Origin: a virus | Virus record (IMG/VR): IMGVR_UViG_3300011113_000396 | Coordinates: 1 to 64,000 of that record | Reading direction: 5' to 3' (one strand) | Length of the DNA: 64,000 nt | Part shown: one piece after another, positions 2,910 through 45,882 of the stretch | How positions within the stretch are numbered: position 1 is the first letter of the stretch | How the letters are laid out: every line of letters starts with the position of its first letter | Position numbers and translations under genes: made by a program | Notes under the pieces: generated by a model | Database searches by the model: none | Told to the model about the DNA's origin: nothing | The model's input: only the letters and a program-made list of their open reading frames with translations

Positions 2910-3506
2910 ATGCGAACTTTTATCCAATATCTTTTTGAAGCAAAGGACATTGACCCTTATGTAAATGTACGTCCTTCTTATGCTATTGAATCTCCTTGGT
3001 ACACCAATTCTCGCCAAGTATCTTTAGATGACAAAGGTAGAGAGATACCCTCCGAAAAATATGAAGGTATTCCGGGTACTGGACCATATTCAGATATTCA
3101 ATCAAGGGATGTAAAAAATTCTACGAATAGCATATTCAATGAACTAAAAGATCATTTGCACAATTCAAGAATGCAGTCTTGGGAAATGGGAGATAGACAA
3201 GGGCCGATGCCAACACAAGAAGGATCGCAAGATGCTGCATATTCTTTAATTTCAAATTTTAAAGCACTTCCAATAATTAGAAAAATTTTAAGAGAAAAGC
3301 ATAAAAAATCTGGTGGAAGTTCCATTCAAGTTGAAACAAGACTCACGCGCTTGGATACTCAACTTGAAGATATGGCCTACGCACATCCACAGTTTAATTT
3401 GTGGGCACAAGCAAATAGTGATATGATCGCGGCTAATCTAGCTAAAGGCGGTCACATCACCGACCACATCGATCAATTCATGGCAACTCAAAAACAGAAA
3501 ATATAA
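2910..3506 (+). CDS. Hypothetical protein with capsid-targeting-like N-terminus
   Basis: 198 residues, no recognised domain. The N-terminus MRTFIQYLFE follows the capsid-targeting pattern (basic, amphipathic, ending L-F-E), so cleavage by gp21 after Glu10 is predicted. The body is hydrophilic, with a helical stretch around residues 90-190 and no membrane segment. It lies between two genes with similar N-termini in the same orientation, and its stop is one base before the next ATG. A capsid-internal protein is the best guess; the function is unknown. Confidence 0.5.
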   Translation: MRTFIQYLFEAKDIDPYVNVRPSYAIESPWYTNSRQVSLDDKGREIPSEKYEGIPGTGPYSDIQSRDVKNSTNSIFNELKDHLHNSRMQSWEMGDRQGPMPTQEGSQDAAYSLISNFKALPIIRKILREKHKKSGGSSIQVETRLTRLDTQLEDMAYAHPQFNLWAQANSDMIAANLAKGGHITDHIDQFMATQKQKI

Positions 3507-20338: not shown

Positions 20339-21205
20339 ATGTCAAATTTCAGTGATTTCAAAAAGCGTTCTAAGTCAAGCATCGAAGATCTTACCAAGAA
20401 GATTGAGGATCTAAACAAGGAAGCATCCTACAAGGATGATCGATTCTGGAAGCCAGAAGTCGATAAGGCTGGTAATGGCTATGCCGTTATTCGCTTCCTT
20501 CCTGCTGCTCCCGGAGAAGACATTCCATGGGCAAAGGTCTACTCTCACGCCTTCCAAGGCAAGGGTGGATGGCTCATTGAGAATTGCCCAACCACAATTG
20601 GTCAGAAGTGCCCAATCTGCGAAGGTAACAGCGAACTCTGGAACAGCGGTATCGAAAAGGACAAGGATATCGCTCGTAACCGTAAGCGCAAGCTTTCTTA
20701 CATCTCAAACATTCTAGTTGTCAGCGATCCGGCTAATCCGGCCAATGACGGTAAGATGTTCCTCTATAAGTATGGCACCAAGATCTTCGGTAAGATTCAG
20801 GAGGCCATGCAGCCACAGTTCAAGGATGAAGAGGCCATCAACCCATTCGACTTCTGGAAGGGTGCTAACTTCAAGCTTAAGATCCGCAAGGTTGCTGGAT
20901 TCATCAATTACGATAAGTCAGAGTTTGATTCTCAGTCAGAACTCTACCGTGGTGATGATGAGAAGCTTGAGTCGCTGTGGAAGAACCTTAACAAGCTTAA
21001 TGAGTTTGTGAATCCAGCCGAGTTCAAGAATTATGAAGATCTCAAGAAGAAGATGAATGATGTTCTTGGTGGTGATCTTCGTGATATCGGTGCTCAGTCA
21101 AAGACCATTGAAGATGAAGATGCTCCATCTCCATCAAAGCGGTCTGGTCCTTCTGATTCAGAAGACGCGATGGCTTATTTTGAGCGTCTGTCGCGGGAAA
21201 ATTAA
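20339..21205 (+). CDS. 32: Single-stranded DNA-binding protein gp32
   Basis: 288 residues (T4: 301). The N-terminal basic LAST-like region with FKKRSKSS mediates cooperativity. The OB-fold core contains the zinc ligands His70, Cys83, Cys91 and Cys94 in YSH...ENCPTTIGQKCPIC, as in T4 gp32. The acidic C-terminus (EDEDAPSPS, DSEDAMAYFERL) binds replication partners. Strong Shine-Dalgarno six bases before the ATG. The codons are richer in G/C third positions than in the structural genes, consistent with high expression. Its last four bases overlap the convergent gene. Confidence 0.95.
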   Translation: MSNFSDFKKRSKSSIEDLTKKIEDLNKEASYKDDRFWKPEVDKAGNGYAVIRFLPAAPGEDIPWAKVYSHAFQGKGGWLIENCPTTIGQKCPICEGNSELWNSGIEKDKDIARNRKRKLSYISNILVVSDPANPANDGKMFLYKYGTKIFGKIQEAMQPQFKDEEAINPFDFWKGANFKLKIRKVAGFINYDKSEFDSQSELYRGDDEKLESLWKNLNKLNEFVNPAEFKNYEDLKKKMNDVLGGDLRDIGAQSKTIEDEDAPSPSKRSGPSDSEDAMAYFERLSREN

Positions 21206-21972
21206 TAACTTAAAGTTCTCCAACTAACGTCAAGAACTTTTTGCATCTGCAATATCAACCCGGAGTCGCCAATACTATTGAGGCTCCGGGTTGATTGTTC
21301 ATTTCGGAGGGGTTGAACATTTCTTTGTCCAAGAATAGCAGGCATAGACTGTGGTATGGCTGCTTCCCCTTTATCTGATATAAATTCTTGTGGGTCAAAC
21401 TTTTCTTGATTTATCTTTATTGGATTTCCGGATTGAATGGTCTTCAATTCCTGAATTTTTTGCATTATAACTTCTTCAAGATCTTCCTTTTGCTCATAGT
21501 ATGGCAGTTGTTCTGATCTTGATTCTACTTTGATTTTATCCTGCTCAGGCATATTTTTTTGAGCCTGACGGTCTTTCTTTTCCTGAACAGATAATTCCTT
21601 TTCGCTTGTATTTAATTTTAATTGCTTAACCTTTGGTGGCGGTGGTGTCTTATCTTCAGTTTCTTTTGGAGAAACCTCTGTCACCTTTTCTTTGATTGCA
21701 TCTTCGTCTGTATTCTTCTCTCCAGAAACGTCATTGGTTGACTTAACTGATTCCGCTTCGGCTTTGTAAGACGAAGATTTCAGATTAGATATCTTAGTTT
21801 CAATCTCTTGAAGCTTTTTATCATAAACATCTTGGCTGATTTTTTTGTTGTCTAGATCTTCTGCTAGTTGTTCTTTTTCTTTTTCCAACAAGCCAACTTC
21901 GTCTTCAGGCTTTGGAGAAGTTTCAGTTAGCATCATTTTAAAGAAATTATTTGGTTTGTTTTCTTCAATCAT
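21202..21972 (-). CDS. Acidic coiled-coil protein, capsid-targeting-like leader
   Basis: 256 residues, highly charged. The N-terminus MIEENKPNNFFKMMLTE has the hydrophobic helix plus L-T-E ending shared with the left-end cluster. Residues 25-65 are a coiled coil (LLEKEKEQLAEDLDNKK...). A Pro/Lys/Glu linker follows, then a second helix (about 165-185). The ATG overlaps the stop of the gp51-like frame (ATGA), so it is translated after gp26/gp51. It could be packaged in the head, or be a tail assembly factor given its place after the baseplate chaperone genes. Confidence 0.5.
   Translation of the reverse strand: MIEENKPNNFFKMMLTETSPKPEDEVGLLEKEKEQLAEDLDNKKISQDVYDKKLQEIETKISNLKSSSYKAEAESVKSTNDVSGEKNTDEDAIKEKVTEVSPKETEDKTPPPPKVKQLKLNTSEKELSVQEKKDRQAQKNMPEQDKIKVESRSEQLPYYEQKEDLEEVIMQKIQELKTIQSGNPIKINQEKFDPQEFISDKGEAAIPQSMPAILGQRNVQPLRNEQSTRSLNSIGDSGLILQMQKVLDVSWRTLSY
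21256..21293. terminator. Long hairpin downstream of gp32
   Basis: CAACCCGGAG and CTCCGGGTTG form a perfect ten-pair stem with an 18-base loop. The sequence after it on the plus strand (ATTGTTCATTT) is only moderately T-rich. It sits 50 bases after the gp32 stop, inside the end of the convergent gene, and is a candidate gp32 terminator or mRNA 3' stabiliser. Confidence 0.5.
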
Positions 21973-22169
21973 GACAGTTCATTAAATCCTTTCGCGGATG
22001 CTGCCTTAAGTTTCTTTTCTGTTTGATATGCCTTAATTTGAGATATGAATACATCTAATTCCCAAGGCATCATTCTTTCAATCTCAGATAGTGGGATTTC
22101 ATGTTTGTAGATAAGATTGAAAAATTTTACATACTTATCTACTAAATTTTCACTATCGAGAATTAAGAA
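21969..22169 (-). CDS. 51: gp51-like frame, reached by -1 frameshift from gp26
   Basis: 66 codons open to a TGA that overlaps the next ATG. There is no ATG, GTG or TTG in this frame before residue 33, and the frame runs upstream into the gp26 coding region without a start. The product reads FLILDSENLVDKYVKFFNLI, then YKHEIPLSEIERMMPWELDV, then an acidic/basic tail. The hydrophobic-MPWE core resembles gp51 (baseplate hub assembly catalyst) of T4-like phages and the T part of tail assembly chaperones. A -1 slip on U8 at the end of gp26 gives a 288-residue gp26-gp51 fusion. In T4, genes 26 and 51 are neighbours. Confidence 0.65.
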   Translation of the reverse strand, partial: FLILDSENLVDKYVKFFNLIYKHEIPLSEIERMMPWELDVFISQIKAYQTEKKLKAASAKGFNELS

Positions 22170-22834
22170 AAAAAACGCAGATGTTCTCCTATTATTGCAG
22201 TTCTTGAAACCCCATCTGATGTTGTATAGCCAACTTCAAAATACAATTCAGGATTGTTTTCAATAAATTGTTTTATTTTATTATACTCATCAATTTTTAA
22301 ATTTTGTAAAACATCGACTCTTTCCTCTAAGGGGAGGTTGTCCATAATGAAATATTCATCTGTTCTTTCAAAAGATTTTACATGTAGTGCAATCTTTTCT
22401 TCAGATGTTAATTCCTTTGATATGCAATCTTTGGCCTTTATGCTTTCAAATGTCACAATTTCGCCATTACCAATCATTAAGGTTTTGCCTTCTATAAGAC
22501 TTATTTTATGATCTAAAACATTAAGACTTATTTTATGCTTTTCTTGCGTTGTGGGGCATGTAATTTCCAAATCAAGTTGTTCGCCCATTGATTTAGCTCT
22601 CAAGAAAAGAAAACATTGTTCAACAAGAGCTAATTCGGCCTTTGCATTAAGTGGCGTGTCGAAACAATCGTTAATTAAATCCAAAACAGTTTTAATTATA
22701 AGATCATTTCTAGATTCCTCTTTTATAATTGCCAAGTTTTTTTCGTCCTTGACTAAGAACGGTCTGAAGTAATGCTCTTTTCCATTAAGCAATTTAGCTT
22801 TATATTTTGGTAATCTATTTTCAAAGTATGACAT
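22163..22834 (-). CDS. 26: Baseplate hub protein gp26
   Basis: 223 residues (T4: 208). The opening KAKLLNGKEHYFRPFLVKDE and KNLAIIKEESRND match the T4_baseplate family (gp26: strand, R-P-F-L-V-K-E-E-K). It also contains LFLRAKSMGEQLDLEITC, as in that family. It acts in assembly of the central baseplate hub. The zero-frame stop UAA follows U8 within four bases, the arrangement of a programmed -1 site. It lies between a tube-fold gene and the gp51-like frame. Confidence 0.8.
   Translation of the reverse strand: MSYFENRLPKYKAKLLNGKEHYFRPFLVKDEKNLAIIKEESRNDLIIKTVLDLINDCFDTPLNAKAELALVEQCFLFLRAKSMGEQLDLEITCPTTQEKHKISLNVLDHKISLIEGKTLMIGNGEIVTFESIKAKDCISKELTSEEKIALHVKSFERTDEYFIMDNLPLEERVDVLQNLKIDEYNKIKQFIENNPELYFEVGYTTSDGVSRTAIIGEHLRFFS
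22166..22177 (-). promoter_or_regulatory. Candidate -1 ribosomal frameshift site
   Basis: The mRNA reads CGU-UUU-UUU-UCU-UAA in the gp26 frame. Slippage by one base on the U run gives CGU-UUU-UUU-UUC-UUA and enters the gp51-like frame. U-UUU-UUU is a permissible slippery heptamer. Confidence 0.6.
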
Positions 22835-22841
22835 ATAATCC

Positions 22842-23414
22842 TCAATTATTTTTAAATGTATAAGTTCTAAAATTAAATTCTACAGTTGCAAACATAACAG
22901 CATTTTTTTCTGCTTCTCCAAATTCTAACGGAAAAATTCCAATAGGATATGCTTCAGAGAAAATAAATGTAGATGAAACTTTATCCTGCAAATTCAGAGA
23001 TACAAGAATTACTTGTCCGAGTATAGATGTATAATCATTTACATAGGTATAACGATTACCAGCAAACCCTGTCCCGCTACCATTTAACTTTGATCCATCG
23101 TTAACAATACTTTCTACCCAATCATTAATAGCTTTATAGTTTGTCCATTTAGCATCAACTGCCATAGTCAATAGCAAGGAACTTGTTTTATCAAAGTCAA
23201 AATTTACAGGCACATTTCTACCAATATTTGGACCGCTAGTAAAATCTCCAATGACTCCTACTGATTTGTTTGGAAACTTAACTGAAAATATTGGTATTGA
23301 ATTGGCAACTTCTTGCCCATTTCTTGTAATGCTTACTTCAAAGCGGTTGCTTCTTTGTAGTCCATAGGTCTCTACTTTATTTTTTATGTAATTTATTGAG
23401 CTGTTAATTTGCAT
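22842..23414 (-). CDS. Tail tube-fold baseplate protein
   Basis: 190 residues. The opening VETYGLQRSNRFEVSITRNG, the core and the ending SEAYPIGIFPLEFGEAEKN followed by VEFNFRTYTF match the gp19/gp54-type tube fold, in which a conserved AYP-x-x-(I/L)-x-x-(I/L) segment precedes the final strand. Candidates are the tube initiator gp54 or a related hub component; T4 gp54 is longer (320). It starts inside the end of gp4 and is followed eight bases later by gp26. Confidence 0.6.
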   Translation of the reverse strand: MQINSSINYIKNKVETYGLQRSNRFEVSITRNGQEVANSIPIFSVKFPNKSVGVIGDFTSGPNIGRNVPVNFDFDKTSSLLLTMAVDAKWTNYKAINDWVESIVNDGSKLNGSGTGFAGNRYTYVNDYTSILGQVILVSLNLQDKVSSTFIFSEAYPIGIFPLEFGEAEKNAVMFATVEFNFRTYTFKNN

Positions 23415-34244: not shown

Positions 34245-34661
34245 ATGTCTGATATAACAAACAAAGAACAACTCAATAATTTTCTAGAAATAACTAATCC
34301 AAAAACTTTGAAGCAAGAATCTTCTATAGTGAAGAAAAATGTAGAAGATGACTATGAATATGCTAGAGATAACATTAGAGAGATTCTAGAGAAGGGCAAA
34401 ATGGCTTTAGATGGCATTCTTCAGGTTGCTCAGGATGGAGACTCCCCCAGAGCATACGAAGTCGCTACAAATATGCTCAAGGCTCTCTCAGAGATCAATA
34501 AAGATCTCATGGATGTCCATGTTAAGGTCAAGGATAGTGAAAAAACCACAATTAAGCAAACCAATAACGCTATTTTTGTGGGTTCTACCTTAGATCTTCA
34601 AGACATGATAAATAAAGAAAGAAGCTCAAAGAAAGCGATAATACAGGACAACAATGTTTGA
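34245..34661 (+). CDS. 16: Small terminase subunit gp16
   Basis: 138 residues (T4: 164). The helical core VEDDYEYARDNIREILEKGK and ALDGILQVAQDGDSPRAYEV match gp16, with the D-Y-x-x-(A/V)-R-x-x-x-x-x-(I/L) opening and the 'SPRAYEV' turn before the second long helix. The C-terminal tail (TIKQTNNAIFVGST) contacts gp17 in T4. It overlaps gp15 by eight bases. It recognises DNA for packaging and regulates gp17. Confidence 0.88.
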   Translation: MSDITNKEQLNNFLEITNPKTLKQESSIVKKNVEDDYEYARDNIREILEKGKMALDGILQVAQDGDSPRAYEVATNMLKALSEINKDLMDVHVKVKDSEKTTIKQTNNAIFVGSTLDLQDMINKERSSKKAIIQDNNV

Positions 34662-37600
34662 TTCATTTTATAACGATTGCATTAAAAAGAACACGATAGC
34701 ATTTGCTTCGTTATTTAACAACATCTATGTGAATAGAGAGGACACAGAGGAATCTAAAAAAATAAAAGTACCTCTAGTATATGGCGGTAAGGAAAAGTAT
34801 GTAAGTCGCCTTCAAAATCCGTCTAGTATTTCTGAAAAAGATAAGCTTCAAATAACTCTTCCCATGATGAGTTTTGATATGTCTAATCTGCAATACGATA
34901 CGCAGAGACATAGAAACAAACTTGAATTCAACAAGCTTTTTTATCAAGAAGAAGGTGAGACTAAAGCCAAAATTAAAATAGGCGAATATCCTTGCTTGAT
35001 GCAATTTAATCTTGCAATTTACACTCGTAATATTGAAGAAAATTTTCAAATTATTGAGCAAATTGCACCCTATTTCACGCCTGAATATATTCTTACTCTA
35101 GATTTTGATAAGACTTTGACTAGAGGTATTGATATTCCGATTAATCTAGTTGCATCAAAGATCGGAAATGACTATGAAGGTGGATTTGGCAATCGTAGAG
35201 CTGTAGTAAGTACCTTACAATTTGTAATGCGTACCTATTTGTTTGGTCCTGAGCGAGAAGCAACGCCAATTCTTACAACTGATTTTAATCTTAATACCCA
35301 AGACAGCTTTTTACAATTTATTACAGATGTTCAAGTCAATGATGACTTATATCTTAACAATCAATCTATTACAGTTACTTGGAGGCAGGGAGGTATTTTC
35401 CCCAGAAATCCAACTATCGTAATTACAAATCTTACAAACTACACCCAAGAAATAGTCTACGATCCAGAAACATTTGACGTTGGCGATGGAACTAATAGTG
35501 TTACATTTCCTATACCAGCTTCTGCTCCTTTGCTACAACAGTTATATGTAAGAGTATTTTTGGGCACAGTATCAGATAATTCGCCAGCATTTGAAATTAG
35601 ATCAGCTGCTGGAAATATTTCCTTGTTACGGTTGGCTAATTTTTCTGGGACAACTTTTAATGATTTGATGTCATCCAACCACTATTTCTTTACTCAAAGT
35701 GGTGTGACACAATTTCCAAGAGGCAACAATCTTGTCTTGGCTTATAATTATGGCTCATATAGCGATCTTAACATTAAAACGCCCGGATTACTTGAATATT
35801 ATCGTGCATTTGGCTTAACATTTAGAGCAAATACAATTGACAATCCACAAATTCCATTTGGTAGCGTTATACACAACGGCATGTGGGCTGGTATAAGTTA
35901 TGATCAGAACAGAGTTTTGCCTTGTTTAACAATTTACATGAGACCCGGAGCCAATGTAAATTTATATGCAAACCAAGGTGATGGGGTGTTCGGCACAACA
36001 CAAGGATCATTAGCAAATAGAAGAACAAGTGAGGATATGTTCCAAGCAACATATGGTTCTCAATCTTATTATATTAATGGATTTTGGGGATGGAATGGAA
36101 CTACAAGTACTATAAGTATTGGATCATATCCAACAGCTGGCATTACAATAGAGAGTGGTTTTAGTGGATATATTTTTGACAAAAATAATCAAAATAGATA
36201 TCCCGACACCGGAAAATATTCAACTGGTGTAACTCATTCTCAAGCAGGCCCATCAATAAGAACATTATTTGATCCAACATTTACTCAAAAGTTATATCCA
36301 AATCGTGGGGCAACAGGTCTAAGAGCTTGGCAAATTACTGCCTTTGGTAGTAATAATCCAGCTGATTTATTTTTTGATTCAAATGTAATTTCTGGTTCGA
36401 CTCTACCGATTTTTACTGCCAATCCCAATTTGTCCGGTTCTGATTTTAATTATCTTGATAACAATGATAAGATGAGATTTGGAACGTATATGGACTGTTA
36501 TAGAATAGCCCATAATGGAAACACATATTTGATTCCATCTCCATTTACTGCAAATCTTGTTACAGATATGCTTGGGTTTACTGCATATAAATCGACTGGA
36601 TTTACAGGCAGAGAAGAATTTGCTGGTAAGTTTGGAACAACCTATGTGGGAGGATGGAATAAATTATTTGATTTTGTTTATGCTGGAAAAAATATAAATG
36701 GTGTTACGTTTACCCCACCCACTCCATGCGTGGATATTATTTTCAATGATCATGAACTTAGATGGGGACTGGGTTTGGGTGCTGATGCCTTGATGATATG
36801 GAGATTCATGCTTTTGGTTGATGGGTTGACAACTGCTTGGATCAATAGAGTCAAACAAGATGAATTCTGGCCAAATCTTCAGGCCAAATATGCAGAATAT
36901 CCCGGCCTGTCTTTTGACAGAATCTTTGATAATATGAAAAATTCATTTATTCAGTTTACATCAGGACCTTTATCGAGAAAAGGTCTTCATGGAGGAATTC
37001 AGTTTTCTACTGATGCATTGCCATTGAATGAATTTTATGACAATGAGGTTAGAAAATATTGGTATGGACTTCAGGAAACAAGCGAAAGAAGAAGTCCGGG
37101 ATGCAAATTTGCTCCAGTTCATGTAAACAGAATTCCTAAATTAAAATCAGCTGCTCGTTTTAATGATGTAACAATTCAGAGCTTTTCTCAAGGAGTAACA
37201 TTACCATACGAATTAATATATCATTATCCTTATGGTTATCCTTATACTTTCTCAAATTATCAGGGAAGATATAGAAGAACAGGTTATGGCCCTACACCAT
37301 CTAATCCAATAGCATTACAAGGTGTAACAAATATAGTCATAAATCTAAATCCAACGGTACAACAAGTAAATATATCATCTGATAAGCTTGTTCCTTGGTT
37401 TATTGAGGACTCCGTTGGACAAACTGGTACAGCTTTTAATGTAGGTATTTCATATAATCAAACATATTTTGAAACAAACCAATTACCTACTACATTGGGG
37501 AACGGTACTTTTGTATCTTTCTTTGGTAAATATCAAGAACCTTCACTCTGGCCTACGGCGGGAAGATCTTTATCAGAAAAATATGAACCATTTTTTGCAA

Positions 37601-38724
37601 TAAAACACGAATCAAAAGAAATTCGTGGCGTAATTGAAGAAAATATGAGTCATGGGGTTTCTGGAATATTCATCTATAATAATATTTTATTTAATAGAGT
37701 AACATATCATGTTCCACATGGATATGAAAACAGTTGGTTTATGGATAGTTTACCTTCAGTTGCAAATAATTTTGCTAGAGGATTTACTTATAATGATCCT
37801 GCAATATTTTCAAAAACAGATTTTAGTGGGGTTGATCAAAGACAAAATCCAAATTACCAACCGATAAATTTTTATCATTCTTATAACGAAAATATATTCA
37901 TATCAAAATTATTAACACCGCTTCCACTTAATATTTTAAATCAAGCTGTAATTTTCCAAGGACCTATAACAAATGAAAATGATTCTAGTGCTGGGTATTA
38001 CGGAATTCACCCTAAATCTTGGAACAATTTTAAATACAATGATGAGATTTTATTAAATCATATTTTATGGGATATAGAAGTTGCTACCCATGGAAGAACA
38101 TATGAATATCTTTCTTCATCTGATGATATTTCAATGGAAGAAGCTTTAAGATATGAGGTTGGAGGATTTAATATCTCTAAATTGAATCCGGCTTTAGTTA
38201 GCAAAGTTAGATTGTTGGGTGTTACTGGGTCTGATCAAAATTTAATCTTACACAGAATTACTCTACCAATTCCATATATTTTAACAACTGATTATGCAAA
38301 ACCAGAACAGGGTTCATATTACGATAATTGGTATAATAATCATTTTGCTCAAAATGTTTTAGCCACAAGTGTCGATCCTTCCACTGGAACAACCCTTGAT
38401 AACATTAATCTTATCACGACTGGAAATAGAGATTTAGACTTCTATACTAAGTCTGTTGTAACAGAATCAAACGGTTCTCACTCATGGAGTACACTTAGAA
38501 CTGATAATAACATCAGACGTTTCAGTGTTGATGTTTTTGCTGGGACTCAATTAGTTGGAAACTTAGTACCAAGCAAATACTATCCAATGGGTGTTTGGTT
38601 GGTTACTGATGAAGTATCAATATTACCAGACGGAACCACGTTTAATAATTACAACTTAACTTTCCAATATCGTGATGCTGGTCCAATGGTTGATGGAATT
38701 ACTACTGCACCTTATAGAACATGA
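34654..38724 (+). CDS. 15: Tail sheath terminator gp15 with about 1,100-residue extension
   Basis: 1,356 residues against 272 in T4. Residues 1 to about 210 are a clear gp15: MFDSFYNDCIKKNTIAFASL, then VPLVYGGKEKYVSRLQ, LPMMSFDMSNLQYD, YTRNIEENFQIIEQIAPYFT and RRAVVSTLQFVMRTYLFGP, all in T4 order. From about residue 225 to the end there is a new beta-rich segment, high in Asn, Gly, Tyr and Phe, with strand-turn repeats and no recognised domain. No stop or frame break lies between the parts. gp15 is a hexamer capping the sheath, so six copies of the extension would crown the tail top. It could be a collar or whisker-like adhesin. Confidence 0.85.
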   Translation: MFDSFYNDCIKKNTIAFASLFNNIYVNREDTEESKKIKVPLVYGGKEKYVSRLQNPSSISEKDKLQITLPMMSFDMSNLQYDTQRHRNKLEFNKLFYQEEGETKAKIKIGEYPCLMQFNLAIYTRNIEENFQIIEQIAPYFTPEYILTLDFDKTLTRGIDIPINLVASKIGNDYEGGFGNRRAVVSTLQFVMRTYLFGPEREATPILTTDFNLNTQDSFLQFITDVQVNDDLYLNNQSITVTWRQGGIFPRNPTIVITNLTNYTQEIVYDPETFDVGDGTNSVTFPIPASAPLLQQLYVRVFLGTVSDNSPAFEIRSAAGNISLLRLANFSGTTFNDLMSSNHYFFTQSGVTQFPRGNNLVLAYNYGSYSDLNIKTPGLLEYYRAFGLTFRANTIDNPQIPFGSVIHNGMWAGISYDQNRVLPCLTIYMRPGANVNLYANQGDGVFGTTQGSLANRRTSEDMFQATYGSQSYYINGFWGWNGTTSTISIGSYPTAGITIESGFSGYIFDKNNQNRYPDTGKYSTGVTHSQAGPSIRTLFDPTFTQKLYPNRGATGLRAWQITAFGSNNPADLFFDSNVISGSTLPIFTANPNLSGSDFNYLDNNDKMRFGTYMDCYRIAHNGNTYLIPSPFTANLVTDMLGFTAYKSTGFTGREEFAGKFGTTYVGGWNKLFDFVYAGKNINGVTFTPPTPCVDIIFNDHELRWGLGLGADALMIWRFMLLVDGLTTAWINRVKQDEFWPNLQAKYAEYPGLSFDRIFDNMKNSFIQFTSGPLSRKGLHGGIQFSTDALPLNEFYDNEVRKYWYGLQETSERRSPGCKFAPVHVNRIPKLKSAARFNDVTIQSFSQGVTLPYELIYHYPYGYPYTFSNYQGRYRRTGYGPTPSNPIALQGVTNIVINLNPTVQQVNISSDKLVPWFIEDSVGQTGTAFNVGISYNQTYFETNQLPTTLGNGTFVSFFGKYQEPSLWPTAGRSLSEKYEPFFAIKHESKEIRGVIEENMSHGVSGIFIYNNILFNRVTYHVPHGYENSWFMDSLPSVANNFARGFTYNDPAIFSKTDFSGVDQRQNPNYQPINFYHSYNENIFISKLLTPLPLNILNQAVIFQGPITNENDSSAGYYGIHPKSWNNFKYNDEILLNHILWDIEVATHGRTYEYLSSSDDISMEEALRYEVGGFNISKLNPALVSKVRLLGVTGSDQNLILHRITLPIPYILTTDYAKPEQGSYYDNWYNNHFAQNVLATSVDPSTGTTLDNINLITTGNRDLDFYTKSVVTESNGSHSWSTLRTDNNIRRFSVDVFAGTQLVGNLVPSKYYPMGVWLVTDEVSILPDGTTFNNYNLTFQYRDAGPMVDGITTAPYRT

Positions 38725-40355: not shown

Positions 40356-43300
40356 ATGGCTGAATTAACACACTCACATAACATTAGCGGAACTCTTATA
40401 GGCCTTACACCCGGAAGTGCTCCTTTAACCGTTGGATTAACCTTTTCTGTTGATGGTGTGTCATTCTCCTCTGTAAATTTTGATCTTCGCATTGATGTAG
40501 ATACTTTTGATTTAAGTGTTCCTTATACTTCTATTGATACTTTTAGAGAATTAAATGGAAGTTCAGAAGTTCTAATTGCAAATAATTCAAATGGACTTAT
40601 TGTTAGTAACACTGGAACTACATGGAACCATTTTATTGGAATTACATTATATTCCCCGCAACAAAATATTTTTAATGCCGGATTAGCAAATCAAATGCTA
40701 GCTGGTGATTTACATTATCGAACAAGAGCAAATAATTTTTCTTTAAAATATGGAGCGTTTGGTCAAACAGGAAGTGGCCAAATAGCAGAAGTCGCATCAT
40801 CAACAAGAGGCGAAACACTTTCATTTAGACCATTTAATATTGTTTCGGCTACAAATGGAGTTGCAGGATCCACTCTCGGATTAACTTTACAATCTGCTAA
40901 TATTCAAAGATATTATGTTGGTATTGGTACTGGTGCAACATTTTTTGGTATTGTTTCATTACTAGGATGCACCAATGGTATTAATTTAAATTCTTCTAAT
41001 TTAACATCTACACAAATTTCAGAAATAAATGCTGATTACTTAGATCCTAATATTTCTGGTACTGATTCAAAATTCAATACACTCAGAAGAATTATTGATA
41101 ATTCTGGTACAACAATATTCAATACTTCTTATACAGAATTTGTAGTGCCAAAACATATTCCGACTGGAAGTTATTATTTAATGCCAATCCCAAATTCATT
41201 TTTTGGACTTCCGGCATTTAGCAATGACGAATCCTTTACAGCTTCGGGACAAAATATTAATTTATCACAAACAAATATTAATATTACAAATAATATATCT
41301 TCTGGGTTGACTGGAGTTTATAGTTTATCATCTGGTGTAACGCATTTTACAACGGCAATATCAACAAGACTTCCAATTGTATCACAAGCCTTTTCTAATG
41401 TAGATTTTGCTGATAAAACTTTTTCGATATTTGATCCAATAACATTTAATTTAGTTACATCTCCCTATGGAATTACAAATAATTTAACAGGAAATACGTT
41501 TCATAAGTTAGATTATGGCTTTAATAATAGAGGAACAACTAACTATGGAGGTGCTTTAACGGATAATCCTGTATCTCATGTACCACCATTATTTGGATTT
41601 ATTCCTATTGGATTAACTATTGGAAATACTCTAACTGTATTATTAGATGGTATTACATTTTACGAAAAAATTTATAATCCATATAATGTTAATTTTAATA
41701 ATACATCACTTGCACATTTTTATACAAGTGAAAGTACTATACAAAATAATAAACGTTTTATACGTTTAATAAATGAATCTGGCGATTTAGCTGCTAAAAG
41801 AAATTTAAATCACATCAATAGAGCATTTTATAGAGTTGATTTTAATAATCATGCTAATCCTTGGGGATTTACTGGATTTACTTTTGGTCAAGGATCTACA
41901 CAAAGCCAATTAAAGGTATTTTACGGTAATCCTGCAAATGGTATATCATTTATTCTACCAATAAATACAGGCTCACCAGCAGACTTTTACTCGTTAACCG
42001 GGCAAGACGTTTTTATTCCGATTCAAGGCACTGCTAGTGGATCTACATTGACCCCGGGAGCTTCTGTTGAAATACACTATCAAAATAGACCACTTGGGTA
42101 TCTAGAAAAATTAAATTTATATAATGCATCTGGTAATTTTGCTTTAGGAATTACTATTGCGGATAATAGAACCTTTATTCCAAAAAACACAACTGAATTG
42201 GGATATATAAGAAAAAACTTTGATCAATCTAATGTTGAAACTTTTATTGTCCCAAATTTAAATAGTGTTGGATCTACTGGAACTGCAAGAATATCATTTA
42301 TTAGAGGGGATGGAGTAAGTTTTGAATTTGGCTCAACTCCGATCACAACTCCATTTAGAACATTTTCACCTATACACACGATAGGAAATATTTCTGGACT
42401 GACGTTAATCGCAACTGGGGTTACACAATCAACAAGCCCAACAAGCTTTACAAGATTTATTGCTCCTGCTGTTGATTTAATGCGAATAACTGTAAATCAT
42501 GGCCTAACAAATCTTGAGTCCGGAATAATTGGAAGAAATAATATCCACAGTAGATATTATATGCAATCAAATGTTGATAATTTTTTAACTGATGGTAGTT
42601 TCTATAGAGGTTATTTGAGTTTTATACTTGATTCTGTCGGTCCAGAAAATGTTGTAAATAATGGTATTAGTGTTACAAATCGTACATTGCGTTCTTTTAG
42701 AGAAGCTGCTTTAGAACGTGCTAATAACATAAATGCTATAAATGGCATTTCTTTGAGTATTCCTTTGAGAAATTTTCAAGGTGTTATCACTGAAGGTTGG
42801 CCATTCGATACAATTGAAGGTAATAGTTCATTAACTCAATTGATGAACTATTTTAATGGCCCACCATTGACCGAGGCTCAATTATCAGCAGTTGCAGACA
42901 CATTTAATTATCCTCAATATGATACCGGGTTTACACTTATGTTTGATCAGGGTGACAGTCCGGATGAGACTTTTAATAACGGGGAATGGTTTCTTGCAAA
43001 TCCTCAATCGTTCTTAAGATATTCCAGTGGCAGCACGTTCTTCCCATCAACTGCATTTAGTTTTGATAATACCACGATAAGCTTTCCACACTACATTTTC
43101 TATGACTATAGAATTACTGGTGTGACTTTATCATCTACATCTTCTGTTCAATCGCAACAATCATTAACAACAACAATAACTGTACAAGATTTACCTCACG
43201 CATCAATTTTTGATGGATTAAGACTATCAGTTCTTAATGGTACTTCTGAAGTGTTTACAAAAAATTTATTATATACAACTTCTAGCAGTAATGATTATAG

Positions 43301-44738
43301 AATACCCGGTTATTCTGGGTTAGGTGTAACAAATTATGCTGCTTATTATACAACTACTCCAAGGGCAATAACTGGTATTTTTGTAGGTAGTGGAGTTACG
43401 TTAGGGGGAATAACTATTAGTCCCCCAGCAACTGGTTGGCCAGCTTCTGCGACTCTTACTGTAAGAGTAAGTCCAATATTTAAATCATTTATTAATATTA
43501 CAAGTGATGTTGATGTTTTACGGACTAATTCTTATGTTAGAGATACATCATTCTCAACTGCTGCTCAACCAACAACTGGTGGGGGTGGTGGTGGATCGTC
43601 TAGTGGATCCGTAAGCGTATCAGAATCTGTTGTTACTGGTGTCGCTTTCACCTCAACCGAAAACGATTTCTATGCAGGATTCCTCTGTGGTACTACTGCT
43701 TATAATATTATTACAAATAATAGTACTGCTTCGTATTCAGTACTAACCAGTAGCAGCACAGCCTACGCCAACGCCAAGGCTGCGTTTGATGCTGGAACTC
43801 TAACGTCAAACACTTCAACAGACATTGAAATTCATTCTTTACTTAACTATATGGATTACGGTGGAAACATAATTGTTGCCCCAACAATTGATGGATTGTT
43901 AGGAAGCAATTATGAATATGATGTAGTATTTGCTGAAGACAATAAGAGATATGGTGAATTGATGCGTATTGGTTCTGAAAAGAATCATGCAATTGTTATT
44001 GTTGGAACCTCCCTTGAAGAGGATGCAGCCTCATTTGCAGCTCCAGCATATACTAATCTCAATTCAGCAGGGCTTGTTGATGGATTGACCTATATGACAA
44101 CTGCAAATAAGGGTGAATATGTGTTCTCAGTGCTAGGATACAAGAATAGAACCCGTTTCTATGGTTCCGGAACTGATACTGTTCGCCTTTATCTGTCCTC
44201 TGATGTTGCAGGCGCATATGCTCGTTCGTATGTAGAGAATAAATACCACTTATCAAGCTCTGGTTCGATTAGAGGCGGAATCAAAACTTATTCAAATATT
44301 ACTCCAACTATTGTAGATCGTGATCTCTCTGGCTATTACACCAGAGGTATCAACCCAATCTACATTCCAAGCGGTACAAACAGAGCTGCTATTTGGGGAG
44401 ATGCCACTGGTATTACTACAGGAAACGAAGTATATAGAAAGTCGGCTTCAATCTCCAAGAACACTAGCACAATTAAGAGAGAATTCAAGAAGATCTTTGA
44501 AGACTTCCAATTTGAACAAAATAATGCTGGTACAAGAGCACAATTCGTTTCAAGAGCAACTACTGTTCTTGATAAGTTGCAATCTGTTGGTGGCCTTGCT
44601 TCTTACACGTTAATTTGCAATGAAACAAACAATACCCCAACTGTAATTGCACAGAAGAGATTGGTTGTTGACTTGACAATAGTACCTAATAATTCAATCG
44701 AATCTATAGTCTTGAATTTTGTTCTTAATCAAATCTAA
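40356..44738 (+). CDS. 18: Tail sheath protein gp18 with giant N-terminal domain
   Basis: 1,460 residues against 659 in T4. Residues about 1086-1460 align with the two following genes and carry the conserved sheath C-terminus (FKKIFEDFQFEQNNAGTRAQ, LASYTLICNETNNTP, VDLTIVPNNSIESIVLNF). Residues 1 to about 1,074 are an unrecognised beta-rich region full of Gly, Thr, Asn, Phe and Ser, similar in style to the gp15 extension. The two parts are joined by GGGGGGSSSGS (1075-1085), a flexible linker. The N-terminal part is AT-rich; the sheath part has more C-ending codons. It is probably a minor sheath subunit that decorates the tail surface. Confidence 0.85.
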   Translation: MAELTHSHNISGTLIGLTPGSAPLTVGLTFSVDGVSFSSVNFDLRIDVDTFDLSVPYTSIDTFRELNGSSEVLIANNSNGLIVSNTGTTWNHFIGITLYSPQQNIFNAGLANQMLAGDLHYRTRANNFSLKYGAFGQTGSGQIAEVASSTRGETLSFRPFNIVSATNGVAGSTLGLTLQSANIQRYYVGIGTGATFFGIVSLLGCTNGINLNSSNLTSTQISEINADYLDPNISGTDSKFNTLRRIIDNSGTTIFNTSYTEFVVPKHIPTGSYYLMPIPNSFFGLPAFSNDESFTASGQNINLSQTNINITNNISSGLTGVYSLSSGVTHFTTAISTRLPIVSQAFSNVDFADKTFSIFDPITFNLVTSPYGITNNLTGNTFHKLDYGFNNRGTTNYGGALTDNPVSHVPPLFGFIPIGLTIGNTLTVLLDGITFYEKIYNPYNVNFNNTSLAHFYTSESTIQNNKRFIRLINESGDLAAKRNLNHINRAFYRVDFNNHANPWGFTGFTFGQGSTQSQLKVFYGNPANGISFILPINTGSPADFYSLTGQDVFIPIQGTASGSTLTPGASVEIHYQNRPLGYLEKLNLYNASGNFALGITIADNRTFIPKNTTELGYIRKNFDQSNVETFIVPNLNSVGSTGTARISFIRGDGVSFEFGSTPITTPFRTFSPIHTIGNISGLTLIATGVTQSTSPTSFTRFIAPAVDLMRITVNHGLTNLESGIIGRNNIHSRYYMQSNVDNFLTDGSFYRGYLSFILDSVGPENVVNNGISVTNRTLRSFREAALERANNINAINGISLSIPLRNFQGVITEGWPFDTIEGNSSLTQLMNYFNGPPLTEAQLSAVADTFNYPQYDTGFTLMFDQGDSPDETFNNGEWFLANPQSFLRYSSGSTFFPSTAFSFDNTTISFPHYIFYDYRITGVTLSSTSSVQSQQSLTTTITVQDLPHASIFDGLRLSVLNGTSEVFTKNLLYTTSSSNDYRIPGYSGLGVTNYAAYYTTTPRAITGIFVGSGVTLGGITISPPATGWPASATLTVRVSPIFKSFINITSDVDVLRTNSYVRDTSFSTAAQPTTGGGGGGSSSGSVSVSESVVTGVAFTSTENDFYAGFLCGTTAYNIITNNSTASYSVLTSSSTAYANAKAAFDAGTLTSNTSTDIEIHSLLNYMDYGGNIIVAPTIDGLLGSNYEYDVVFAEDNKRYGELMRIGSEKNHAIVIVGTSLEEDAASFAAPAYTNLNSAGLVDGLTYMTTANKGEYVFSVLGYKNRTRFYGSGTDTVRLYLSSDVAGAYARSYVENKYHLSSSGSIRGGIKTYSNITPTIVDRDLSGYYTRGINPIYIPSGTNRAAIWGDATGITTGNEVYRKSASISKNTSTIKREFKKIFEDFQFEQNNAGTRAQFVSRATTVLDKLQSVGGLASYTLICNETNNTPTVIAQKRLVVDLTIVPNNSIESIVLNFVLNQI
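43578..43610 (+). other. Gly/Ser linker between domains of the large sheath protein
   Basis: Encodes six Gly, three Ser, Gly, Ser (residues 1075-1085). It lies exactly where the extra N-terminal region ends and the sheath-homologous region begins, marking the fusion joint. Confidence 0.7.
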
Positions 44739-44748: not shown

Positions 44749-45882
44749 ATGCCGATTACCACAACCACACAATCAAACACATTTAACATCACCCCAGTAT
44801 CTGCTACAGATCACTATACTGGGTTTTTGTGTTCCACATCGACATATAATTTATTAGGAACAACTGCTGATTCATTTACGAATCTTGAAACTATTTCAGA
44901 CTCTATTTCTACATTAGCGGGAAGAACAAGCTATACCAGTATTACCACAAATAGTCTAGTTGACAGAGAAATCCATTCAATATTTAATTGCATGGAATAT
45001 GGTGGTAAAATGGTTATTTCTGGGACTACTGCTGGACTAGCCTTATCGTCAGCTAAAATTTCAGAAGTTATAGCCGAGGATACCTCTAGATACAGCGACG
45101 TAATTAGTGTAGCCAAAGCTAGACTGAATTGCAATGCAATTATTGGTTCTGACAGAGATCAGAGTGGGGACTACACCACTCCTGATCAAGCATCAATTAT
45201 ATCCTCAGTATCAACTCAATTGGGGTCTACTGGCACAACAGCAATTTCTTATCTCGCAGCCACAATTATTGGTTATAAGGAAAGGCCAAGATTCTACACA
45301 GGTAGTTCATCCTCTACAAGCGCAATTACAATTTTCCTTGTGTCTGATGCTGCTGGAGCAAATGCTAGAGCGTCAGCACAATCAAAACCATATTTAACCT
45401 CTGCTGGTGTTTATAGAGGAGAACTTTTAAATTATACAAATGTTACCCCTAAGCTCTCGTTTACATCATCAACAACACTAGCCTCAAGAGGAATTAATTA
45501 TTATAATTATCTCCAATCAAAGGGTAAATATTATCTTTGGGGCGATGAAACAGGATTTAGAGATAGCACAAGTGCTAAAAGTTCTTATGGTTTCTCCAAA
45601 GCATTCCTTTATATTAACCGCGAAGTAACTTCCATATTGGATGATTATGTCTTTGAATTTAATGATGCTACCACTAGGTCAGCAATCAAATCAAAGATGC
45701 AGAATATACTTGATCCGATGATTTCAAGCGGTTCTTTGGTAAGTTATACTTTGATTTGCGACGAAACTAATAATCCACAAACAGTAATCAATCAGAGACA
45801 GCTTAAAGTAGATCTAACAATAGTACCAAATCTACCAGTTAAGAGCATTACTTTAAGCTTTAGCATATCTCTGTTATCATGA
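44749..45882 (+). CDS. 18: Tail sheath protein gp18, compact copy
   Basis: 377 residues, about the size of the sheath part of the previous gene and aligning with it end to end. Shared features are DHYTGFLCSTSTYNLL near the N-terminus, VDREIHSIFNCMEYGGKMVI, YLAATIIGYKERPRFYTG and the C-terminal SYTLICDETNNPQTV with VDLTIVPNLPVKSITLSF. It lacks the protruding outer domains of T4 gp18, so it resembles a minimal sheath. It is probably the main contractile subunit, with its own late-type box and C-rich codons. It overlaps the next gene by four bases. Confidence 0.85.
   Translation: MPITTTTQSNTFNITPVSATDHYTGFLCSTSTYNLLGTTADSFTNLETISDSISTLAGRTSYTSITTNSLVDREIHSIFNCMEYGGKMVISGTTAGLALSSAKISEVIAEDTSRYSDVISVAKARLNCNAIIGSDRDQSGDYTTPDQASIISSVSTQLGSTGTTAISYLAATIIGYKERPRFYTGSSSSTSAITIFLVSDAAGANARASAQSKPYLTSAGVYRGELLNYTNVTPKLSFTSSTTLASRGINYYNYLQSKGKYYLWGDETGFRDSTSAKSSYGFSKAFLYINREVTSILDDYVFEFNDATTRSAIKSKMQNILDPMISSGSLVSYTLICDETNNPQTVINQRQLKVDLTIVPNLPVKSITLSFSISLLS

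Follow-up and report, generated by a model that had tools for sequence, protein, structure and literature searches.

A two-form tail assembly chaperone is very likely encoded where a gp26-type gene meets a start-less gp51-like frame on the minus strand of the window, the 64,000-nucleotide stretch analysed here, which belongs to an IMG/VR virus record of 113,452 bases from an uncultivated T4-like phage; as judged from sequence, the two forms would be made by -1 slippage on a run of T. Most ribosomes would terminate at the gp26 stop codon and release the short form of 223 aa, and a minority would slip by -1 on T_TTT_TTT, with tRNA-Phe re-pairing in the P and A sites, to yield a gp26-gp51 fusion of 288 aa. 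Slippage would occur at a low, fixed rate, stimulated by a Shine-Dalgarno-like stretch and, in many relatives, by a hairpin. By analogy with lambda gpG and gpGT, the short and long forms may together form a coat on the tape measure protein and bring in the tail tube. The features of the locus are the following.

22163..22834, minus strand: gp26-type protein of 223 aa, the putative short chaperone form (TAC-N) (Pfam PF12322, E 2.1e-27; phrog_150 'baseplate hub', E 6.1e-30; AlphaFold model, pLDDT 87.7)
22169..22175, minus strand: putative slippery heptamer T_TTT_TTT in the gp26 frame, 1 codon 5' of the gp26 stop (T_TTT_TTN at 98/98 and 77/77 homologous junctions)
21969..22169, minus strand: -1 frame extension, 66 codons plus TGA, the predicted gp51-type C domain of the long form (phrog_634, E 7.7e-12; three-helix model, pLDDT 78.6; signs of purifying selection)
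22184..22191, minus strand: Shine-Dalgarno-like stretch, a possible stimulator (duplex of -7.3 kcal/mol; excess across the family)
22842..23414, minus strand: tail tube-like protein, upstream neighbour (phrog_45 tail tube, E 9.6e-16)
21202..21972, minus strand: charged ORF of 256 aa, downstream neighbour (weak phrog_8246 match, E 9.7e-4)

The gp26 frame (223 codons, 22834..22163, minus strand) ends CGT TTT TTT TCT TAA, read as R-F-F-S-stop, and the T run comprises 8 T at 22175-22168 of the same strand. Slippage by -1 across the junction gives HLRFF followed directly by FLILDSENLVD, and the frame so entered continues for 66 codons and closes with a TGA (21971-21969) that shares bases with the start ATG of the following ORF (21972-21970). 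The first ATG of this frame is at residue 33 of 66, and neither ATG, GTG nor TTG is found earlier. An earlier note on this DNA had described the same gp26 ending, written as CGU-UUU-UUU-UCU-UAA, together with a start-less 66-codon frame and its overlapping stop, and all of these readings were borne out. In-frame T_TTT_TTN occurs at 12 sites in 35 ORFs of the window (15,393 codons). The site in gp26 lies 1 codon from the stop of its own gene, and the next nearest of the 12 is 49 codons away from a stop; the placement of the gp26 heptamer beside the stop is more than chance.

The extension (query 22178-21972) was matched to profile positions 56-116 of 121 of phrog_634, the 'baseplate hub assembly catalyst' (gp51), which agrees with the gp51-like nature proposed for it in the earlier note, and a Pfam scan of the extension returned no family at E ≤ 1. 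Three helices are predicted for it. The AlphaFold model of gp26 aligned best with 3fgx (Z 6.9, residues 5-92) and with the HK97 TAC 2ob9 (Z 6.7, residues 1-88), both scores being below 8, so that the resemblance is a suggestive one; the two ranked first and second of 995 chains, and the next chain scored Z 4.4. Both are counted as TAC structures in the accessible part of the source (PMC9603447). A plain Foldseek search with the same model gave no match at E ≤ 0.001.

The gp26 gene of the window directly follows the tail tube-like gene. The upstream neighbour of the locus in cyanophage S-PM2 is likewise tail tube-like (E 2e-37), and its downstream ORF of 1167 aa has a family of unknown function as its best match, with further matches to a peptidase, an endolysin and the tape measure family phrog_9570 (E 5e-21). 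The window ORF at 21202-21972 occupies the position of this long, partly tape measure-like gene of the relatives, and it is short for an ordinary tape measure.

Profile comparisons indicate that both parts of the window locus are homologous to T4 proteins, gp26 and gp51 respectively, which are listed as hub assembly chaperones in the accessible part of PMC3004832. The gp26 profile aligned with T4 gp26 (hhalign, E 3e-16). In T4 gp51, residues 5-186 aligned with the gp26 profile (E 6e-7, probability 92%) and residues 200-245 with the extension profile (E 3.5e-5, probability 72%); the protein has matches to phrog_150 (E 2.6e-84) and to phrog_634 (E 1.2e-23) as well. Because a gp26-like N domain and a gp51-type C domain both find matches in it, T4 gp51 represents the long form in a single gene. 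The parallel with T4 genes 26 and 51 drawn in the earlier note was correct in that these genes are adjacent, but they are two complete, divergently transcribed genes, whereas the window has one locus with a -1 extension. Moreover, T4 gp26 ends GAG TTC TTT GAG TTA CTA and, unlike the window gene, lacks a slippery run. A separate gp51 with its own start, which would speak against that note's reading, does exist in T-even-type phages, but the heptamer is absent from 5/5 such phages with a complete gp51, namely T4 and four others (50AhydR13PP, Ac42, kvi and JK32) with the T4 layout and a two-part gp51. The gp51 frame of the window differs from that of these five in lacking a gp26-like N domain and any start codon ahead of residue 33.

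The arrangement seen in the window recurs among its relatives. All 8 of the nearest contigs (91-100% identity) carry the identical 8-T run and -1 frame, and the run is therefore not a one-off sequencing error; variants with 7 or 9 T were sought in the close lineage and none was seen. A second scan with the extension returned 15 loci, of which 14 were examined (L127, which is incomplete, was left out), and although some contigs are shared with the previous set, it showed the -1 arrangement in 14/14 loci and the 8-T run in 12/14.

For wider comparison, a first sample found through gp26 comprised 98 loci: 80 IMG/VR loci matched by the gp26 profile (the highest-ranking of 576 that were confirmed among 600 matches listed), 16 named phage records (cyanophages, Melnitz, Ochrobactrum phage OC, C48C1, pf16 and Astolliot) and 2 loci of the window lineage. 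A gp51 profile match in the -1 frame of gp26 was present in 98/98 loci, as was T_TTT_TTN in the gp26 frame, with the gp26 stop following 0-3 codons later. Seventeen junctions went into the gp51 profile, those of the 16 records and that of the window; since L002 is identical to the window, 17 of the 98 loci match the profile by construction, and the other 81 had no part in building it. The second sample was found through gp51 and consisted of the best 80 of the matches listed, less 2 duplicates and 1 locus without a gp26 match. The same register and heptamer were found in 77/77 loci, and the locus without a gp26 match, which is incomplete, still shows AGTTTTTTC. Pooling of both samples gave 175 loci with 173 distinct junctions; in both, the loci were chosen by profile as the best of the matches listed and are mutually related. 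S-PM2, Syn9, P-HM1 and other cyanophages share the locus and the register with a T_TTT_TTC site, and the window protein is 20-27% identical to the proteins of the sixteen aligned records. In the cyanophage records examined, gp51 either appears as a gene of its own, with a start that varies or lies late, or is omitted (S-WAM2, S-PRM1). The inspection of homologues suggested in the earlier note has thus revealed a conserved slippery run at the gp26/gp51 junction in both samples, and these counts provide comparative backing for the programmed -1 frameshift proposed there and for its comparison with lambda G/GT.

The codon 5' of TTT varies among the 173 junctions (AGT 66, GAT 38, AAT 27, TCT 25, GCT 13, CAT 2, CGT 2), so the amino acid at this position is free, and only the third base, which is T in all 173, is fixed. 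Given the codon usage of the same genes, the chance that this third base is T throughout the 97 distinct loci in the first sample is 10^-19.5, a value that assumes independence of loci which are related. The last base of the heptamer varies as well (C 122, T 42, A 8, G 1; n = 173), so that the second residue is Phe or Leu, and six T are retained. By this comparative evidence, the junction is conserved at the nucleotide level, beyond the protein sequence. The extension of L003 differs from that of the window by 9 bases, 9/9 of them at third positions of the -1 frame, and that of L004 by 26 bases, 22/26 at such positions; almost every one of these changes would replace an amino acid if the sequence were read in either of the other frames. 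This substitution pattern argues that the extension is under purifying selection in the -1 frame in the window lineage.

As an alternative, a small gp51 made separately, whether by reinitiation once gp26 has terminated or from a start that is internal or non-standard, is improbable. It draws on the 80/173 junctions in which the -1 frame has an ATG somewhere from the slip site to 24 nt beyond the stop, on the 109/173 with some ATG, GTG or TTG in the first 13 extension codons, and on database annotations, which draw gp51 with such or other starts. However, 93/173 junctions have no such ATG, 64/173 have no ATG, GTG or TTG in the first 13 codons, and in the extension of the window the first ATG comes only at residue 33. 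In 98/98 loci the gp51 profile is matched from its first position onward, which corresponds to the FF codons within gp26, although the profile begins there by construction, and in T4 gp51 these two domains are naturally fused. Across junctions the T run is retained at the nucleotide level but start codons are not, and a separate start was therefore rejected as the main route to gp51.

Considerably less probable still is slippage of RNA polymerase on the T run as the source of the fusion. The window run, with 8 consecutive T, is about as long as runs that permit transcriptional slippage, and six T are short for it. Since 131/173 junctions have six T only (closed by C, A or G and with no T before them), transcriptional slippage is unlikely, and the conserved element is an in-frame heptamer accompanied by an excess of Shine-Dalgarno pairing and of hairpin folding, which points to the ribosome. 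The remaining alternative, a sequencing or assembly indel that split one continuous gp26-gp51 gene, would draw on the frequency of errors in homopolymer runs and on the continuity of T4 gp51 across both domains, but it is ruled out by the single register conserved in 98/98 and 77/77 loci, the 16 named records included, and by the register and run shared by 8/8 near-identical contigs.

Two candidate stimulators of the preferred ribosomal -1 frameshift were found in the family as a whole. Pairing with the anti-Shine-Dalgarno sequence is strongest for 8-mers about 8-15 nt 5' of the heptamer, with a mean of -6.41 kcal/mol in the first sample versus -4.54 in synonymous controls (n = 97). Downstream folding in 45-nt windows starting 10 nt after the first base of the heptamer averaged -6.23 versus -3.97 in controls (n = 96), and the excess was mostly lost by 34 nt downstream (-3.53 versus -3.11). 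In the second sample (76 loci), Shine-Dalgarno pairing was -7.27 versus -6.49 in controls, and folding was -9.18 and -8.80 versus -4.82 and -3.92 at offsets 4 and 12. A smaller second rise in folding appeared near 100-106 nt downstream in the first sample; in the second sample (L130-L209), folding was stronger than in synonymous controls 100-108 nt after the heptamer (-7.85 versus -5.77 at offset 100).

The hairpin is not universal, since 57/161 sequences fold at -10 or lower. Its common register, determined from 161 distinct sequences with loci whose stop is 3 codons away left out, places a stem of positions 13-26 with 30-43, counted from the first base of the heptamer, and its best pairs are formed in 27-29% of the 161. 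A clear excess of canonical pairs was found at 2/14 position pairs of this register (83 versus 55 and 117 versus 74.5) and a less clear one at a few others. In the window itself, the Shine-Dalgarno-like core GGAG (22189-22186) lies 10 nt before the heptamer with a pairing energy of -7.3 kcal/mol, and this stretch is unexceptional, being matched by 18% of synonymous controls. No stable hairpin was found close 3' of the window heptamer (-1.3 kcal/mol in the first 50 nt), and a 9-bp stem occurs 27 nt downstream. A strong hairpin or an exceptional Shine-Dalgarno stretch in the window is on these values unsupported.

Exceptions were encountered in an annotated collection, from which 30 stretches were fetched, one of them a repeat of S-PM2, so that 29 count. 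These comprised 21 with the heptamer, 5 of the T-even type and 3 with the -1 register but no T6 run. Among the 21 are the Aeromonas phages 65.2 and Aeh1, SRB7757 (an 'UNVERIFIED' record), PhiW-14 and phiN3. Aeh1 and 65.2 belong, like T4, to the Straboviridae, yet they carry T_TTT_TTC and a -1 gp51 frame with no start nearby. The gp51 region is unannotated in both records (approximately 2699-2866 in Aeh1, L213, and 3190-3354 in 65.2, L109).

The three stretches with a -1 gp51-like frame but no T6 run are those of Cygsa01 (L114, Pseudomonas), Vibrio K475 (L211) and Salmonella PhiSH19 (L210, Ackermannviridae). Cygsa01 and K475 have TAATG at the gp26 stop and may use a separate gp51 start. In PhiSH19 the heptamer is absent and the first start codon comes 32 nt beyond the stop. 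The gp51 profile matched Cygsa01 at E 4e-12, PhiSH19 at 8e-5 (the match beginning only 47 nt after the stop) and K475 at 0.24, and the call of a gp51-like frame in K475 therefore depends on reading of the residues by eye. In a tree of 30 proteins, which gives no firm root and no firm placement of the window (end branch 2.91), the three form one clade (support 97/85) beside the heptamer-bearing PhiW-14 (94/92). Because the -1 register persists in this clade although the T6 run is missing, it may use a weaker one-tRNA slippage or stop-start coupling. Taken jointly, these data suggest, with about even chances of being right, that T4-related phages changed the route to the two forms at this junction several times. 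In this joint reading, most sampled lineages, including Aeh1 and 65.2, would frameshift with a Shine-Dalgarno stretch and T_TTT_TTN, often with a hairpin, and T-even-type phages would use a duplicated, fused gene instead.

Other genes of the window were noted in passing. Two adjacent tail sheath-like genes are found at 40356-44738 and 44749-45882 (plus strand). The first encodes 1460 aa, of which only residues 1199-1458 match sheath, with a long N-terminal part beyond the match, and the second encodes a tail sheath-like protein of 377 aa. The ORF at 34654-38724 (plus strand, 1356 aa) matches the tail sheath stabilizer phrog_227 with its first 230 residues, and the remaining 1100 or so were without a match in the same scan.

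The proposed system connects gp51, the long-unclear 'catalyst' of the T4 hub, to the short and long tail chaperones of the lambda type, and suggests that most of the sampled relatives in the T4 supergroup make the long form by frameshifting. Frameshifting would also account for those cyanophage records in which gp51 is tiny with an odd start or is missing. Phages using other routes offer a way of testing whether short and long form must be made in a fixed ratio.

A T4-like frameshift chaperone is probably not new in kind. Tail chaperones of T4-like phages were reportedly identified by Vladimirov, Gautam and Davidson in 2022 (Virology). In a partial search, we found no openly available description of a cyanophage gp26/gp51 frameshift, which that paper may well contain. 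The 2025 paper on phage Adele, in its accessible part, credits Vladimirov et al. 2022 with poly-T frameshift signals in T4-like TAC-N genes (PMC12846349), and the accessible part of the PRFect paper cites the same work for some T4-like phages that carry the short form and the fused long form as two genes in place of frameshifting (PMC10885494). The Adele group itself (Vandenendeviridae / Andersonviridae) resembles the window, as far as that part of the paper describes it, in having poly-T at the end of TAC-N and a start-less C part in the -1 frame (PMC12846349). The Adele motif is GTTTTT and occurs in other phage families, whereas the window has T_TTT_TTT.

Lambda G/GT and the window locus are alike in the -1 slippage, here predicted, near the end of the first ORF, in a second ORF without a start, and in the tail tube gene upstream. 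In S-PM2, the following gene also has a tape measure family as one of several matches. The slippery sequence of lambda is GGGAAAG and differs from the T_TTT_TTT of the window. Set beside the gpG/gpGT frameshift mechanism as outlined in the accessible part of PMC5009743, the window system is very probably a frameshift of the lambda G/GT type within the T4 supergroup.
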